Assembly (NCBI GenBank): GCA_022340665.1
Contig: JAJDNM010000145.1
Location: 1 to 32,389 of the forward strand
DNA: 32,389 nucleotides
Origin: Acidobacteriota bacterium
GTDB lineage: Bacteria > Acidobacteriota > Thermoanaerobaculia > Thermoanaerobaculales > Sulfomarinibacteraceae
Direction: 5' to 3'
Part shown: piece by piece, positions 1,085-32,389 of the stretch
Layout: each line of letters starts with the position of its first letter
How positions within the stretch are numbered: position 1 is the first letter of the stretch
Notes under the pieces: generated by a model
What the model was told of the DNA's origin: nothing
Database searches by the model: none
Seen by the model: only the letters and a program-made list of their open reading frames with translations
Program-made: the position numbers and the translations under genes

Positions 1085-2371
1085 ATGGACCGTTGGCAGG
1101 CTCTCCAACCGCACCTCCGCCAGATGATGGGCGACGAGGAGTACCAGACGTGGATCGAGCCCCTCGCCGTGCTTGATATCACCAATACCACGCTGACGCT
1201 GACAACCGATAACACAATCGTCGCCGAATGGGTTCGGGACCACCTTCAGCGAGATATTGAGACCGTGGCCCGCAGTCATTATGGGGCGGAGTTCCGCGTT
1301 CTCATGAACTGGGATGAGAACGCCGCACCTACCGGTGAGATGGTGAGCAAGACGATCGCTACCCACCCCTTTAACCCCGGTTTCACCTTCGAGCGTTTCG
1401 TGGTTGGGTCATCGAACCAGTTTGCGGCAGCAGCAGCAGAGGCAGTTGCCGACCGTCCAGGTAAAACCTACAACCCGCTCTATCTGTATGGCGGATCAGG
1501 GCTCGGAAAGACCCATCTGCTGCACGCCATAGCCAACCGCCTGGCGAACTTGAAACCGACCCTCAAGGTCACCTACATGACCACCGAGCAGTTCGTCAAC
1601 GAGCTCATCAACTGTATTCGCCGTAAACAGATGGACGCCTTCCGCCAGACCTTTCGCGAGGTAGACCTCCTGCTCCTCGACGACATCCAGTTCATAGCCG
1701 GAAAAGAACAGACACAGGAAGAGTTTTTCCACACCTTCAACACCCTCCAATCGACAGGCCGGCAGGTAGTATTTACGTCCGACGCTCGACCAGCTGATAT
1801 TTCTGGGGTCGAGGAACGCTTGAGATCTCGTTTTCTCCAGGGCCTGATCGCTGACATCCAGCCGCCAGACCTCGAGACCCGATGCGCGATTTTGCGCGAG
1901 AAAGCGCGTGCGATCGGGCGCGAACTCCCAGAAGACGTCGTTTTGTTTATCTCTCGGCGCGCTCAGAACAACGTACGCGAGCTCGAGGGGTGCCTGAATC
2001 GAACAATCGCATACGCCCAGCTCAAAAATTCAAAGATTTCGGTCGATGTCGTTCGAATGGCGCTCTTCGAGCTTCTGCCGGACGAGAGATCAACCACACC
2101 CTCTGACATTATCCGGTTTGTCGCTCAGCATTATGGTGTGAGAGTCGCGGATATCAAAGGCCGCTCGAATCGTCGCTCCATAGCCCTTCCCCGACAGGTC
2201 GCGATGTACCTGATCCGACAGATTCTCGAACTGAGTTTTCCAGAAATCGGCCGGATTTTTTCCAAACACCATACGACGGTCATGTACGCTGTTGACAGCG
2301 TGCAGAAAATGCGCCAGTCAAACCCGGACTTCGATGCGACATTGACCTCTTTTCAAGAACATTTCATCTGA
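1085..2371 (+). CDS. dnaA: Chromosomal replication initiator DnaA
   Basis: DnaA is the AAA+ ATPase that binds DnaA boxes and melts the origin. The 428-residue product has an N-terminal DnaB-interaction domain (about 1-78), a very short linker (about 79-92), an AAA+ core with Walker A GGSGLGKT (136-143) and Walker B LLLLDD (195-200), the NNVRELEG sensor region, and a C-terminal helix-turn-helix domain. The start is supported by the conserved Trp/Leu-rich opening beginning right at Met1. The DnaA signature, normally GRDHTTVLHA, here reads SKHHTTVMYA (from residue 393), so one residue known to contact bases in E. coli differs. The gene lies between divergent rpmH and the origin, the ancestral bacterial order. 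No ribosome binding site is visible, so it may be leaderless. Confidence 0.97.
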   Translation: MDRWQALQPHLRQMMGDEEYQTWIEPLAVLDITNTTLTLTTDNTIVAEWVRDHLQRDIETVARSHYGAEFRVLMNWDENAAPTGEMVSKTIATHPFNPGFTFERFVVGSSNQFAAAAAEAVADRPGKTYNPLYLYGGSGLGKTHLLHAIANRLANLKPTLKVTYMTTEQFVNELINCIRRKQMDAFRQTFREVDLLLLDDIQFIAGKEQTQEEFFHTFNTLQSTGRQVVFTSDARPADISGVEERLRSRFLQGLIADIQPPDLETRCAILREKARAIGRELPEDVVLFISRRAQNNVRELEGCLNRTIAYAQLKNSKISVDVVRMALFELLPDERSTTPSDIIRFVAQHYGVRVADIKGRSNRRSIALPRQVAMYLIRQILELSFPEIGRIFSKHHTTVMYAVDSVQKMRQSNPDFDATLTSFQEHFI

Positions 2372-2526
2372 AATTCCACAGGTCGCATGTGGATCGCTTG
2401 TGGACAGCGTGCATCAGCCTGTGGGGGGCGATGATTTTCCACACCCCAACACAACCGTTACACACCCCAGCTCACAAGATTTCAACTATTTAAAGTATTG
2501 CGAATATTAATATTTAAAGAGTTTCC
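2372..2526. other. Probable replication origin (oriC)
   Basis: This intergenic stretch between dnaA and dnaN has the expected parts of an origin. DnaA-box-like sites (consensus TTATCCACA) appear as AATTCCACA (2372-2380, plus), CGATCCACA (2388-2396, minus), CTGTCCACA (2399-2407, minus), TTTTCCACA (2435-2443, plus) and weaker CGTTACACA (2456-2464, plus) and TGTGGGGGG (2420-2428). None is a perfect consensus box. An AT-rich segment follows (about 2477-2526), markedly different from the GC-rich surroundings. It contains the 9-mer TATTTAAAG twice in direct orientation (2487-2495 and 2511-2519), 24 bases apart, and is the likely unwinding element. Gene orientation switches just left of dnaA, and all genes point away, as expected at an origin. 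Confidence 0.82.
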
Positions 2527-2543
2527 TCACAGATTCCATAGCC

Positions 2544-2572
2544 TCGACGACGACGACGATTCATGCTATATT
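2544..2572 (+). promoter_or_regulatory. Promoter of dnaN
   Basis: A -35 of TCGACG (2544-2549, 4 of 6) is separated by 17 bases from TATATT (2567-2572), which also carries an upstream TG, making an extended -10. Transcription would start near 2579. That rules against the in-frame ATG at 2563 as the dnaN start and supports 2614. A CGA trinucleotide run (2545-2559) covers the -35 and part of the spacer. Confidence 0.7.
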
Positions 2573-2613
2573 CTCGCCAGAAAGTACGTAGTCGTAGCAG
2601 GAAAGGGCGATTG

Positions 2614-3717
2614 ATGGAACTCAAACTGCAACGAAACCTGGTTCTTCAAGAGCTCTCGATCCTTCAGGGGGTCGTCGAACACCGAACCACCATCCCCATA
2701 CTCTCGAGCATACTCACAGAAGCCGAGGAGAATCGTCTGCGGATGGTAGCGACTGACCTTGACATGACGATCGTCACAGAATGTCCCGCCGCGGTGCATG
2801 GAGGAGGGCGCGCTACCCTCGAGAGCAAGGTGTTCCAGAATCTCGTACGAAGTCTGCCAGAGGAGGAGTTCACACTTCGGCAGGATGGCGAAGCAGTAGA
2901 AATTACGTGCGGCAGGTTTCAATCGCGTATGGCGGTATCGGACCCGTCGGAGTATCCGACCGTGCCTGAAGTTCCGGAAGTAGGCGACTATTCGCTGCCA
3001 TTGGATCTCTTTCAGCTGATGTTGGATCGGGTGGCTTTCGCAATCACTAAAGATGATCCGAAATTCCAGCTCAACGGGGCTTTGGTCAAGTTGATACCGG
3101 GGGAGATAGAAATCGCCTCCACCGATGGGCATCGTCTGGCGATGGTACGGGCGAAAGCCCCGGCTGGAGAGGTACCGTTCGAACAACAACTGTTTCCTCG
3201 GAAGCTGTTGGCCGAGTTTGCTCGGTTTGGTGACGACGAAGTACGGATCTCGGCGGGCGGTAATCATCTCGGTTTTCTGATGGGCGAGAGAACCCTCGTC
3301 TCGCGGATCGTCGAACTCCGTTTTCCGCAATATGAGCGAGTCATTGTACGGGATAATCCGAATCGGGCGCGCGTCGATCGCAAAGAACTTCTCGCGTCGC
3401 TTCGCCGCGTGAGCCTGATGGCCCATGAGAAGGCTCGAGGCGTTCGGTTCCGCTTCGACGCGAGCGGTGAGTTGACCCTTGTCTCGATCGGTTACGAGCG
3501 CGGGAGCGCTGAGGAAACGTTGAACGTCATGTACCAGGGTGACGGTTTGGAAATTGCCCTGAACGCCAGTTATCTTATTGATGTGCTTCAAGTTCTCGAG
3601 TGTGATAACGTCGAGCTCCAGCTTCGGGATAGCAACACGCAATGTGTGGTCGTACCAGTTGAAGACGACCCCCGGCTCGAAGAATACATTTACGTACTCA
3701 TGCCGATGCGGCTGTGA
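2614..3717 (+). CDS. dnaN: DNA polymerase III sliding clamp, beta subunit
   Basis: DnaN forms the ring-shaped dimer that tethers DNA polymerase III to DNA. The 367-residue length matches the family (about 366). The N-terminus MELKLQRNLVLQELSILQGV and the stretch RTTIPILSSIL are typical. Later motifs include the fold's FPQYERVI and the C-terminal YVLMPMRL, part of the peptide-binding groove (E. coli ends YVVMPMRL). I chose the ATG at 2614 because AGGAAAGGG lies just upstream and a promoter maps between it and the upstream in-frame ATG at 2563. The gene follows the origin and precedes recF after a 165-base gap. Confidence 0.96.
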   Translation: MELKLQRNLVLQELSILQGVVEHRTTIPILSSILTEAEENRLRMVATDLDMTIVTECPAAVHGGGRATLESKVFQNLVRSLPEEEFTLRQDGEAVEITCGRFQSRMAVSDPSEYPTVPEVPEVGDYSLPLDLFQLMLDRVAFAITKDDPKFQLNGALVKLIPGEIEIASTDGHRLAMVRAKAPAGEVPFEQQLFPRKLLAEFARFGDDEVRISAGGNHLGFLMGERTLVSRIVELRFPQYERVIVRDNPNRARVDRKELLASLRRVSLMAHEKARGVRFRFDASGELTLVSIGYERGSAEETLNVMYQGDGLEIALNASYLIDVLQVLECDNVELQLRDSNTQCVVVPVEDDPRLEEYIYVLMPMRL

Positions 3718-3882
3718 CCAGCACGCTCGTGTGGACCGGTTAAGAGCCGGTGCAGGTAGAGCGTTACACATGGCGCGACCATCGTTCTCATCGAGTAGCC
3801 GAACGGTGAGCACGCAGAGGAGCGATGAGAAATCGTAGCTCGTAGTGCGACGGGTGAGAGGTAGGCGTGTGGAGAGCGGGTC

Positions 3883-7392
<3,510 letters not shown>

Positions 7393-7393
<1 letters not shown>

Positions 7394-9918
7394 TGACCGA
7401 CAACCCGCCTGCTCCCCGCGAAGACCGTGTGCCAGTAACCATCGAGGACGAGCTCCGAAACTCGTACCTCGACTATGCGATGTCGGTCATCATCGGGCGC
7501 GCCCTTCCGGATGTTCGTGATGGCCTGAAGCCGGTCCATCGGCGCATTCTGTACGGCATGTGGGAGAGCGGAAACACAGCGTCTCGGCCGTACAAGAAAT
7601 CAGCCAGGATCGTCGGTGACGTCATGGGTAAATACCACCCGCACGGTGATCAGGCGATTTACGACTCGGCGGTTCGCATGGCGCAGAATTTTTCGATGCG
7701 TTACATCCTGGTTGACGGACAGGGCAACTTCGGTTCGGTGGACGGCGACTCGCCGGCCGCCATGCGATACACCGAGGTCCGCCTTACCCGGCTTGCCGAG
7801 GAGATGCTTGGCGATGACGTCGCCAAGGAAACCGTCGACTGGGCACCTAACTATGACGGTTCGTTGAGGGAACCCACCGTCCTTCCGGCTCGCGTGCCCA
7901 ATCTGCTGGTCAATGGCTCCTCCGGCATCGCGGTTGGGATGGCGACCAACATCCCGCCCCACAACCTCGGAGAAGTGGTCGATGCCGCGATCGCGCTACT
8001 CAGCGATCCGGGACTCTCGGTTGCGGATCTCATGGACTTCGTGCCAGGGCCAGACTTCCCGACGGCTGGCTTCATCCTTGGCCGGAAGGGCATCCATGAC
8101 GCATACACGACGGGCCGGGGGATTATCCGCATGCAGGCCCGGACGCGCATTCGCGAGGCAGAAAACAAGAAACGCGCAGCGATCATCGTCACCGAGATCC
8201 CGTATCAGGTGAACAAAGCCCGTCTCGTCGAACAGATAGCAAACCTTGTCCAGAGCAAGCGCATCGAGGGCATTGCCGATCTCAGAGACGAGTCCGACCG
8301 CGACGGCATCCGCGTGGTCATCGAGCTGAAACGCGACGCGGTGCCGGAAGTCGTGCAAAACAACCTTTTTGCGCTCACCCAGATGCGAACGACCTTTGGC
8401 ATCAACCTCTTGGGGGTGCTCAACAACCAGCCGAGGGTTTTCAACCTCAAAGAGCTGATTCAGTACTTCCTCGACCACCGCCGCGAAGTCGTCCTGGCGC
8501 GCACCGCCTTCGACCTCGCACGAGCACGCGAGCGGGCACACATCCTCGAGGGGCTGGTGATCGCCCTCGACAACCTCGATGCGGTGATTGCCCTCATCCG
8601 TGCCGCCGCCGACCCGGAAACCGCACGCACCGGCCTGATGGAGAACTTTGGCCTCTCAAAAATACAGGCGCAGGCAATTCTCGACATGCGGCTGCAGCGG
8701 CTGACCGGCCTCGAGCGCGACAAGATCATCGAGGAGCACGAAGAGGTTCGGCAGCTGATCGCGCATCTCGAAGCGGTGCTCGAATCCGAAGACATGGTCG
8801 CCGAGATCATCGTCGAGGAACTCGCCGCGGTGAAAAAGAAGTTCGGCGACCAGCGGCGGACCGAGATTATTGAAGATCCGAGCGAAATCTCCATCGAGGA
8901 CCTGATCGCGGAGGAAGAGATGGTCATCACCGTCTCTCGAGGTGGATATGTCAAGCGCTCGGCAGCGGCAACCTACCGCGCACAGCGTCGCGGCGGGCGA
9001 GGGCGACGGGGCATGGGGATCAAGGACGAGGACGAGGTCTGGAAGCTCTTCGTCGCTTCTACACATGCGACGATGCTCTTCTTCACCTCGACCGGGCGAG
9101 TGTTTGCGAGGAAGGTCCATGAGCTTCCGGACGTCGGACCGGCGGCCCGAGGCCGCGCCCTCGTCAACCTGCTCCAGCTTGCGCCGGATGAACACGTCCG
9201 CGCACTCCTGGCCATTCGCGACTTCGCGGAGCACGAGGATTCCTATCTTTTCTTCGCCACCCGTCTCGGGAGGGTGAAACGCACGCCGCTCCGAGACTAC
9301 GCGAATATTCGCGCCAACGGACTCCGCGCGGTGGTTATCAACGAGGGCGACAACCTACTCGGGGTCAGGCTCACTGATGGCGCCGGCCACGTGTTCATGG
9401 GCACGAACCGGGGGATGGCGATACGTTTCGAGGAGACGGACGTGCGCCCGATGGGGAGAGTCACCGCTGGTGTGCGGGGTGTAAATCTTCGCGATGGGGA
9501 TTTTGTCGAGGAGTTCGCGGCATTCGAGCCCACGGACGAGAACGACATCCTGGTAGTGACCGACCTCGGTTATGGCAAGCGAACCCAGATCTCCGATTTT
9601 CGCGTCCAGCGGCGGGGCGGGTATGGGGTCAAGCTGATTCAGCTGACTGAAAAGAACGGCGCCGTGGCAGCCATCCGATATGTTCGTGAAGAAGACGAGA
9701 TTCTCGTGGTGACCGAGGGCGGCATGCTCATCCGGACCAACGCCGCAGAAATTTCGCGATTCGGGCGAGCCGCACAGGGTGTCCGAGTGATTCGCCTCGA
9801 CGAGGGAGATCGCGTGGTGTCAGTGGCTCGAGCGGAGGCGACAGGTGATGACGATGATGACGTCACCAGCGACGATGGCTCCGAGAGCACCGACACGCCA
9901 CCCACAGATGAGGACTGA
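7393..9918 (+). CDS. gyrA: DNA gyrase subunit A
   Basis: GyrA carries the active-site tyrosine that breaks DNA, plus the C-terminal beta-pinwheel that wraps it. The 841-residue protein begins with the conserved [20 protein letters not shown] and has the catalytic Tyr in [10 protein letters not shown] (about residue 126). The GyrA-box QRRGGRG, required for wrapping, is present at the start of the C-terminal domain, distinguishing it from ParC. In the quinolone-determining region the sequence is [10 protein letters not shown]: Gln87 replaces the E. coli Ser83 equivalent, while Asp91 (Asp87 in E. coli) is kept. The C-terminus ends in an acidic tail. Translation is probably coupled to gyrB through the TGATG overlap. 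Confidence 0.97.
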
Positions 9919-30795: not shown

Positions 30796-31089
30796 ATGAA
30801 CAAGACTGAAATGGCGATGAAGCTTGCAAAGAAGACCGGCATCAGTCAGGGCAAGGCCGCGGAGATCATCGACACGATGTTCTCTGCCCATCCGCGCAAG
30901 GGCCTGATTGCCACTGCTTTGGATGCAGGTGAGAAGGTGACGATTCCCGGCTTCGGCACGTTTGCCACCAAGCAGCGCGGTGCGCGCCAGGGCCGCAATC
31001 CGGCCACCGGCGCGACGATCATGATTCCGGCGAAGAAGTACGTGCACTTCAAGCCGGGCAAGACTCTCCGCGAGCGCGTCGAGAAGTAA
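30796..31089 (+). CDS. hup: DNA-binding protein HU
   Basis: HU is a small dimeric protein that bends and compacts DNA. The 97-residue product starts MNKTEMAMKLAKKTGISQGKA and contains the family signature IPGFGTFATKQRGARQGRNPATG, with the intercalating Pro in RNPATG, followed by IPAKKYVHFKPGKTLRERV. HU monomers are usually 90-95 residues; the few extra residues lie around SAHPRKGLIA. GGAGG lies before the ATG. It is transcribed alone, between its own TTGACA promoter and a strong terminator. IHF-type identity cannot be ruled out by eye, but the sequence resembles HU. Confidence 0.94.
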   Translation: MNKTEMAMKLAKKTGISQGKAAEIIDTMFSAHPRKGLIATALDAGEKVTIPGFGTFATKQRGARQGRNPATGATIMIPAKKYVHFKPGKTLRERVEK

Positions 31090-31168: not shown

Positions 31169-31203
31169 CGAGGCCGGGCTGACGCCCGGCCTCGTCATTT
31201 TTT
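31169..31203 (+). terminator. Intrinsic terminator of hup
   Basis: An 11-base-pair perfect stem (CGAGGCCGGGC at 31169-31179 paired with GCCCGGCCTCG at 31184-31194), a TGAC loop and a run of six T ending at 31203. There is no T-run for the opposite strand, so it serves the hup transcript only. The 79 bases between the hup stop and the stem carry no gene. Confidence 0.92.
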
Positions 31204-31220: not shown

Positions 31221-32389
31221 TCATCGGGTGACGAAACGATAGGCCTTGGTGACGGTGACGCGGGTTTTCACCCGCACGTCGTCTTTTGTCGCCGGCCTGA
31301 ATCGGTATTTTCTGACAGCGTCCATCACCGCCTGTGGAATCCCGAAGCCCTCGTGATCGGCTCGGAGGACTGTCAGGTCCTCAACTGCTCCTTTGGCATT
31401 GACCGTCGCCTGCAGAATCACGATCCCGCGTCGCCTCGAATGGAGGGCGGCCCGCGGCCATGCGACCGGAGCTTCCTTGAGGATGACCGGCAGCGTGTCC
31501 ACATTTGAAGGGTCGACAAAATCATTCTCGGCCACCACCGAAGGCGGCACGGCATCTGTCGGTTGCAGTGGGGCGGCGGCGGTCGGAGAGATTGTCGGCC
31601 GCGGCGGCGGTCGGGTTTCAGCAACTGCTGTCGCCTCTTCCGGAGGTGGGGGACTGGCTACCGACTGGAGTTCGGCCTCGAGCTGCGCCGCTTCGGCGGC
31701 CTGGATGTGCTCTGCCTCGAGATCCGCCTCCTGCTGAAGCTTTGCCTCTTCCTCGGCCGCGATCTGACGTTGGAGCTCCTCGCGACGGTGCTCCTCCTCA
31801 CTGTCGCTCTGTCCTTGCGAGGCGCGGCGCTCGCTGTCGGCCAGACGCCGCTGCAGCTCCTCGATCTTTTCCTGCCGTGCGGTCAGCTCCTGGCGTATCT
31901 CCTCTTCTTTCTCCGCCATCATGTCGGAGACCAGGGCTTCAGCCAACTTTCGCATCTTCTCGTCCTGAGCTCGACGCTGGGCAGCGATCTCCTCGGCGGT
32001 GGGCGTTGGTGGGGGTGGGGGAACCGATGATCCTCGGCCAATCGTGAACCATAGGATCAGGGCAGTCGCTGCCGCGGCGACGACACCAGCGCCAATCCAC
32101 AGGCCCCTGCCGGCTCGAGAGTGTTGCTCGCCTGAACTCGGTGACTCCATGATGGCCTCTGGATCTACGACAGGTTTCAGATACGGCCCGACGTCGATCT
32201 TCCTTTCTGCGGCGATCTGCTCTTCCTCGGCTTCGATCTCGGAACGGAAGAGGCGATCGACGAAGAGTGCGAGGTTGAAGGTCGTGGGACTGTAGGCGCC
32301 TCCGTAGAGAAGCCTGTCGAGCTCCTTCTTGAAATCGGCGGCAGAACCGAAGCGGTTCTCGGGGCGTGGGGCAAGTGCACGCTCGAGCA
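31221..32389 (-). CDS. Ser/Thr protein kinase fused to a TonB C-terminal domain, partial
   Basis: The reading frame is open from the right edge of the window, so the gene's 5' part is missing. The first visible residues (LERALAPRPENRFGSAADFK, then ELDRLL) are the end of a PknB-type kinase domain. A juxtamembrane stretch (about 25-90) follows, then one membrane helix (about 95-116), a Pro-rich hinge, a long charged coiled coil (about 130-240), another Pro-rich segment, and a TonB C-terminal domain (last 80 residues, with WPRAALHSRRRGIVILQATV and VMDAVRKYRFRPA). The ATG at 32150 would give an apparently complete TonB-like protein of 309 residues, but the frame and kinase motifs upstream show it is internal. 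The kinase would be cytoplasmic and the TonB domain periplasmic. Confidence 0.85.
   Translation of the reverse strand, partial: LERALAPRPENRFGSAADFKKELDRLLYGGAYSPTTFNLALFVDRLFRSEIEAEEEQIAAERKIDVGPYLKPVVDPEAIMESPSSGEQHSRAGRGLWIGAGVVAAAATALILWFTIGRGSSVPPPPPTPTAEEIAAQRRAQDEKMRKLAEALVSDMMAEKEEEIRQELTARQEKIEELQRRLADSERRASQGQSDSEEEHRREELQRQIAAEEEAKLQQEADLEAEHIQAAEAAQLEAELQSVASPPPPEEATAVAETRPPPRPTISPTAAAPLQPTDAVPPSVVAENDFVDPSNVDTLPVILKEAPVAWPRAALHSRRRGIVILQATVNAKGAVEDLTVLRADHEGFGIPQAVMDAVRKYRFRPATKDDVRVKTRVTVTKAYRFVTR

Follow-up and report, generated by a model that had tools for sequence, protein, structure and literature searches.

TonB domains are usually regarded as energy couplers, and the PASTA kinases PknB and IreK combine a cytoplasmic kinase fold with one transmembrane (TM) helix and an envelope-facing outer part. 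Bacterial pseudokinases are, to our knowledge, largely unstudied, and the outer part of EssB/YukC is, as far as we know, not a TonB domain. The force transducers TonB and TolA consist of a TM helix, a periplasm-spanning segment and a C-terminal TonB fold, an order shared by the protein described here, and they engage their motors by the SxHxLxS motif (text excerpt of PMC12204202). SjdR is a TonB-like septum protein (text excerpt of PMC8262864), and in Enterococcus the transglycosylase MltG is phosphorylated by the membrane kinase IreK (text excerpt of PMC12369325).

Seven families of bacterial pseudokinases are named in the main text of a recent review (PMC12599244). According to this text, the MviN pseudokinase domain (ActPs3) of Mycobacterium is tied to peptidoglycan synthesis and, like the protein reported here, is linked to the membrane and has lost its catalytic motifs; the GLW pseudokinases share with our protein a pseudokinase followed by a TM region and the replacement of HRD; and EssB/YukC is likewise a transmembrane pseudokinase scaffold (PMC12599244). 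MviN and EssB are thus precedents for non-catalytic pseudokinase scaffolds (PMC12599244, main text). Neither "TonB" nor "Acidobacter" occurs in the main text of that review, and in the open-access PMC literature we found no description of a kinase or pseudokinase fused to a TonB domain. Here, we describe an apparently unstudied architecture, in which a family of bacterial pseudokinases carries an outer domain new to such proteins.

Results

The stretch of DNA analysed here, referred to as the window, is an entire contig (C145, 32389 bases) of an Acidobacteriota genome assembly of 153 contigs. At positions 1085-9918, it carries a row of genes that, from their translations, we take to be dnaA-dnaN-recF-gyrB-gyrA, and the contig therefore probably lies near the replication origin. 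Towards the other end, a minus-strand frame (31221-32387; 388 codons plus stop) is stop-free to the contig end. Based on this open frame and on orthologs, it is the 3' part of a gene for a protein with a pseudokinase, a TM helix, a coiled coil and a TonB_C domain, the 5' part lying beyond the contig end. In the direction of translation, the minus strand encodes the end of the pseudokinase C-lobe (32307-32387; subdomain XI region, ...RPENRF..., aligned to the family model from position 251 of 643), a signature juxtamembrane motif GGAYSPTTFNLALFVDRLFR in a block that is near-invariant across 32 alignment rows (32244-32303), a TM helix without His identified by a hydropathy scan (32040-32105), a periplasmic coiled coil transferred by alignment from the secondary structure of an ortholog model, where it forms two helices of ~60 residues (31629-32006), a Pro/Ala/Thr-rich linker with low pLDDT for the same stretch in the ortholog model (31503-31628), and a TonB C-terminal domain identified by Pfam and a structure model (31224-31520; Pfam core 31239-31463). 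In other words, the succession of kinase C-lobe end, TM helix, coiled coil and TonB_C that the initial annotation had read from the letters is confirmed by the open frame, Pfam, the models and the orthologs. The convergent neighbour, which is outside the system, encodes an HU-type DNA-binding protein (30796-31089, plus strand; PF00216, E 5e-30), and an intrinsic-terminator-like hairpin lies between the two genes (31169-31194, plus strand). The frame also contains an in-frame internal ATG (32148-32150, minus strand), a possible false start. As had been cautioned, this ATG could mislead annotation: if 32150 is taken as the start, the product is a TonB-only protein of 309 aa. Together with the contig break, it exemplifies how annotation can miss such a protein.

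Because the window is a complete contig, no rightward extension is possible and the 5' half of the gene sits on another contig. The genome contains one other strong match to the family model (C40:3-632, minus strand; 334 bits). This match covers model positions 2-211 and the window aligns to positions 251-641 of 643. As in relatives, mltG (PF02618, C40:700-1566) is directly upstream of the C40 piece, here at a distance of about 50 nt. Most likely, therefore, the two contigs carry parts of a single gene, separated by an unassembled gap of about 39 codons. The contig-end kinase pieces on C150 and C38 were ruled out as the missing half by their intact HRD and DFG motifs, and the piece on C54 stops before HRD/DFG; only C40 fits the family model. 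By itself, the C40 half scores below the Pfam Pkinase cut-off (28.4 vs 31.7 bits), and the window fragment alone, with too few kinase residues, has no Pfam kinase match. Those relatives that have names belong to the Thermoanaerobaculales, e.g. Candidatus Sulfomarinibacter kjeldsenii. The initial annotation had feared a stop or frameshift just beyond the window, or the absence of an upstream kinase domain; relatives have one unbroken frame of about 621-673 aa, and in full-length orthologs a kinase-fold domain does precede the part encoded in the window.

A structure model of a full-length ortholog, based on the 32-row alignment (mean pLDDT 84.5), contains a kinase fold within residues 5-300 at most, which matches PknA (4ow8) with a Z of 24.7 and an rmsd of 3.1 over 256 aligned residues at 22% identity. 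Consistently, Pfam Pkinase matches 31 of the 32 alignment rows at E 0.001. However, the designation as a Ser/Thr kinase did not survive inspection of the upstream catalytic motifs: the C40 half reads HGF (HGFLDP) at the HRDxxP site, GFG at the DFG site and VWLR at the beta-3 Lys, and this half and the orthologs lack the HRD Asp, the DFG Asp, the beta-3 Lys, the alpha-C Glu and the catalytic-loop Asn. To count these residues, we used 106 distinct family members, among which 104 were readable (L078 and L079 are unreadable at the catalytic positions); L044 (identical to L165), L017 (on the contig of L078) and the re-fetched copies L082-L111 and L169-L192 had been dropped beforehand, and the relative L164, in which TonB_C was not detected, was excluded. 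In the alignment of the readable members, the HRD Asp is kept in 0/104 and both catalytic Asps (HRD, DFG) are absent in 94/104; an Asp at the DFG position is present in 10/104, none of which belongs to the class. At the beta-3 site, Lys is found in 5/104 members and Arg in 82/104, and the catalytic-loop Asn is present in 1/104. Six kinases of these genomes served as controls under the same alignment procedure, and all of them (6/6) keep every residue checked. The kinase-like features that persist are H143, G144, P148 and the APE Glu (91/101).

Thus, the family has the hallmarks of bacterial pseudokinases, i.e. a kinase fold, lost catalytic motifs and conservation at the family level. Judged by its residues, the family is a pseudokinase that has retained the fold and lost catalysis. 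Matches to the NCBIfam MAD6 kinase model (87.6 bits vs a cut-off of 460) and to PknB-type models reflect the kinase fold only. In a tree of kinase domains from the same genome group, 17 pseudokinases form one clade with a support of 100 versus 22 active-type kinases, which fits one ancient loss of catalysis. A few divergent relatives (L146, L154, L155 and L164) have HGLVWPG or HGLLWPG at the HRD site, reminiscent of the proteobacterial GLW pseudokinases.

The most constrained stretches of the protein are cytoplasmic, namely H-G-x-x-x-P and the PTTFNLA motif. The PTTFNLA segment is among the most constrained positions, with F286 in 104/104 members, A289 in 102 and N287 in 100. At the DNA level, the PTTFNLA pattern has one match per genome in 11/11 genomes, always inside the pseudokinase gene, and the reversed pattern, used as a control, has one match across all 11 genomes together.

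A hydrophobic TM helix was detected by hydropathy scan in 103/104 members; the finder failed on L154, and at least two entries of this set (L017/L078) are duplicates of each other. The SxHxLxS motif is present in 0/104 members and none has a His in the TM core, while a His is found in the TM helix of the stand-alone TonB that the genome of the window encodes next to ExbB. The suggestion in the initial annotation that the TonB domain senses rather than energises is therefore plausible. In the ortholog model, the TM helix is followed by two helices of ~60 residues each, corresponding to about 125 residues of coiled coil, and a Pro-rich linker. The TonB_C domain of the window scores 37.6 bits in Pfam (cut-off 24.6; E 3e-9), and TonB_C is found in 32/32 alignment rows. 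The C-terminal 99 residues encoded in the window were modelled with a pLDDT of 94.4; the best match of this model is FoxA-bound TonB (6i97_D; Z 11.4, rmsd 2.1, 90 aligned residues), although fold likeness to receptor-bound TonB by itself is no proof of receptor binding. Other TonB domains come next, and TolA domains score lower (Z 3.3-6.7). Weak Pfam matches to DUF2749 and US30 in the window, and to ZapG-like in 1/32 rows, were taken as coiled-coil noise.

A survey of the architecture, advised at the outset, revealed that it is widespread. Among the genomes of the class, 122/148 have a family match at E 1e-20, and leaving out six weak genomes (best E above 1e-40) gives 116/148; in a sample of the phylum, 78/297 genomes, single-contig genomes among them, match at E 1e-30. 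All class members not cut by a contig end have TonB_C except the divergent L164; L068, L081, L137 and L165, which are cut by contig ends, show none. Outside the class, 20/20 fetched loci have the motif and a TonB match, and their kinases are further decayed. One genome contains two tandem pseudokinase-TonB genes, neither with the catalytic Asps (L135:1528-5600; G037:C60).

The usual gene order in the class is ruvX-mltG-pseudokinase. ruvX (PF03652) is upstream in 76/80 class loci with at least 1.7 kb of upstream sequence, and mltG in 65/84 with at least 600 bases. mltG (PF02618) was found in 0/7 genomes of family f2 (G020, G021, G023, G025, G030, G033 and G034), all of which have kept the pseudokinase, and outside the class 0/20 loci have mltG or ruvX as a neighbour, with at least L205 having almost no upstream sequence. 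MltG therefore cannot be an obligatory target, and since f2 lacks mltG, we do not accept an exclusive partnership with MltG as a sufficient explanation. The link of the pseudokinase to a cell-wall enzyme is suggestive, not obligatory.

At a separate locus, the same genome encodes a protein with the order receiver-kinase-TM-TonB_C (C10:28760-31726; L166:6764-9730). Here, the kinase is intact (HRDVSPQN, DFG, VAIK), and the receiver domain scores just below its cut-off (29.2 vs 30.2 bits). Thus, the idea of a working kinase joined through a TM helix to a TonB domain fails for the window gene and holds for this paralog, in which the residues are intact. The paralog is divergent from an exbB-exbD-exbD-tonB operon (ExbB, two ExbDs and TonB by Pfam), and the divergent genes also include what are presumably yebC and ruvC; the three genomes compared all share this order of homologous frames around the paralog. 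Among 43 fetched homologues, 42 match HRD[VI]SPxN and the remaining one reads HRDMSPQN, and the DFG pattern was matched in 40/43, the other three reading DFGIV. None of three active paralogs aligned has the PTTFNLA motif. At E 1e-130, the active paralog is present in 101/148 class genomes, i.e. in 95/116 genomes with the pseudokinase versus 6/32 without it; this co-occurrence is inflated because one genus lacks both, and the counts ignore phylogeny.

In 35/37 genomes encoding the two proteins, the pseudokinase TonB domain gives a lower score with the active paralog of its own genome than with the best other pseudokinase; in G047 and G165, the score with the active protein of another genome slightly exceeds that with every other pseudokinase, G049 ties, and the comparison excludes L209 and L211, close relatives of G149. 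In one genome (G011; L059:8986-10878, L218), the pseudokinase TonB domain shares 81% identity with the TonB domain of the active kinase encoded in the same genome and only 31-38% with those of five pseudokinase orthologs. The remainder of this protein is ordinary, with 55-67% (kinase) and 37-56% (coil) identity to orthologs, and the usual short-chain-dehydrogenase cluster neighbour follows the gene. With an identity of 81%, the domain cannot stem from identical copies joined during assembly. The TonB-domain tree agrees with an exchange with starred support; it was built from few columns, and many of its forks are open. In G149 (L198, L250), the two TonB domains are 59% identical, with a tree support of 92; G176 and G163 of the same family have 59% and 53% identity, respectively, to the active protein of G149, and the pseudokinase TonB domain of G149 is 34-43% identical to those of three pseudokinases of other families. 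This could be a second exchange or concerted evolution. Thus, from the sequences compared, TonB domains have apparently been exchanged between dead and active kinase, clearly in one lineage (G011) and moderately in a second (G149), and the one clear and the one moderate case suggest that dead and active kinases can use the same partner.

Discussion

Based on the data reported here, the anatomy of this protein is firm: a cytoplasmic pseudokinase is joined through a single inner-membrane helix and a coiled coil to a periplasmic TonB domain. From this anatomy we infer a function. Because a large branch of the Acidobacteriota has retained the architecture, often beside the gene for a cell-wall enzyme, the protein probably reports on the state of the envelope without phosphorylating. 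We suggest a model, to which we give about an even chance of being correct, in which it is a non-catalytic envelope-sensing scaffold with the active paralog as a possible partner. In this model, the TonB domain would dock, through addition of a beta-strand, on a partner in the outer membrane or the periplasm, and the coiled coil would relay TonB-domain engagement or spacing across the membrane. In the cytoplasm, the pseudokinase and the PTTFNLA motif would form a docking platform, the partner of which would alter envelope growth. Signalling by the pseudokinase would need no phosphotransfer of its own, and the active kinase-TM-TonB paralog of the same genome would be a likely partner. In a bolder version, which we consider doubtful, the dead and active receptors would constitute a sensory pair acting on the same outer-membrane or periplasmic partner by interchangeable, unpowered TonB domains, and the dead receptor would set the state of the active one by allostery. 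If true, such a pair would use TonB for signalling inwards instead of for energy transduction outwards.

Alternatively, the protein could be a passive tether, i.e. a motorless link of the TolA/TonB type from the inner membrane to a partner in the outer membrane or wall, in which the kinase fold dimerises or anchors and there is no signalling. The TM helix, the periplasm-spanning helix and the TonB C-terminal domain are as in TonB and TolA (text excerpt of PMC12204202), and the loss of the catalytic residues would fit as well, but a pure tether does not explain why the most constrained stretches, PTTFNLA and H-G-x-x-x-P, are cytoplasmic. Moreover, TolB_N homologues are present in the genome itself and in 6/8 genomes searched, so that a Tol system probably exists already, which also makes replacement of TolA less likely; on balance, we regard a tether as unlikely. 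Were the protein instead energised, ExbB-ExbD would drive it to power TonB-dependent transporters with the pseudokinase as a gate. Although its TonB domain is nearest to receptor-bound TonB and the exbB-exbD-exbD-tonB operon is at hand beside the active paralog, 104/104 members are without SxHxLxS and without the TM-core His that the ExbB-adjacent stand-alone TonB possesses, making this the least probable of the readings.

The genes around the pseudokinase, with mltG directly upstream in 65/84 class loci and next to the C40 half, raise the possibility of a dedicated regulator of the adjoining transglycosylase, and phosphorylation of MltG by IreK in Enterococcus provides a precedent (text excerpt of PMC12369325). 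However, this protein is by its residues incapable of phosphorylating, f2 keeps the gene without mltG (0/7), and outside the class the neighbour is missing (0/20); dedication to MltG is, therefore, improbable. It is somewhat more improbable still that the degenerate pocket binds nucleotide and performs other chemistry, as in SelO or SidJ. Some pseudokinases have been found to carry out new chemistry (PMC12599244, main text), and the fold and the APE Glu (91/101) are retained here; yet the Lys, the alpha-C Glu, the HRD Asp and the catalytic-loop Asn are lost, as is the DFG Asp in most members, while SelO keeps the Lys and the DYG/DFG Asp (PMC12599244, table).

Returning to the envelope-sensing scaffold, the conservation of the pseudokinase-TonB architecture across the class and beyond suggests that TonB folds may also sense and report to the cytoplasm. 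Specific tests are made possible by the paralog with its intact kinase, by the adjacent mltG and by the TonB-domain swap that has occurred naturally.

By the features compared, the family differs from each of the described systems. ActPs3 is actinobacterial and part of MviN, and its description in the main text of the review names neither a TonB domain nor PTTFNLA, so that description and taxon distinguish it (PMC12599244). The GLW pseudokinases are mainly proteobacterial, with GLW for HRD and LLLL/W for Lys (PMC12599244, main text); by contrast, HGF is found in the protein described here and in f1/f2 members, with HGLVW only in L146, L154 and L155, distant members that may be remotely linked to the GLW group, and the beta-3 Lys site reads VWLR in this protein and has Arg in 82/104 members. 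EssB/YukC belongs to type VII secretion in Firmicutes, unlike this protein of the Acidobacteriota. Compared to TonB and TolA, the protein is without the SHLS motif and has a large cytoplasmic pseudokinase, and compared to the PASTA kinases PknB and IreK, it has a dead kinase, a TonB outer domain and a two-membrane envelope. Finally, the C10 paralog has the same kinase-TM-TonB order and is present in most of the same genomes, but differs in its extra receiver domain, its intact catalytic residues and its exbB-exbD-tonB neighbours.
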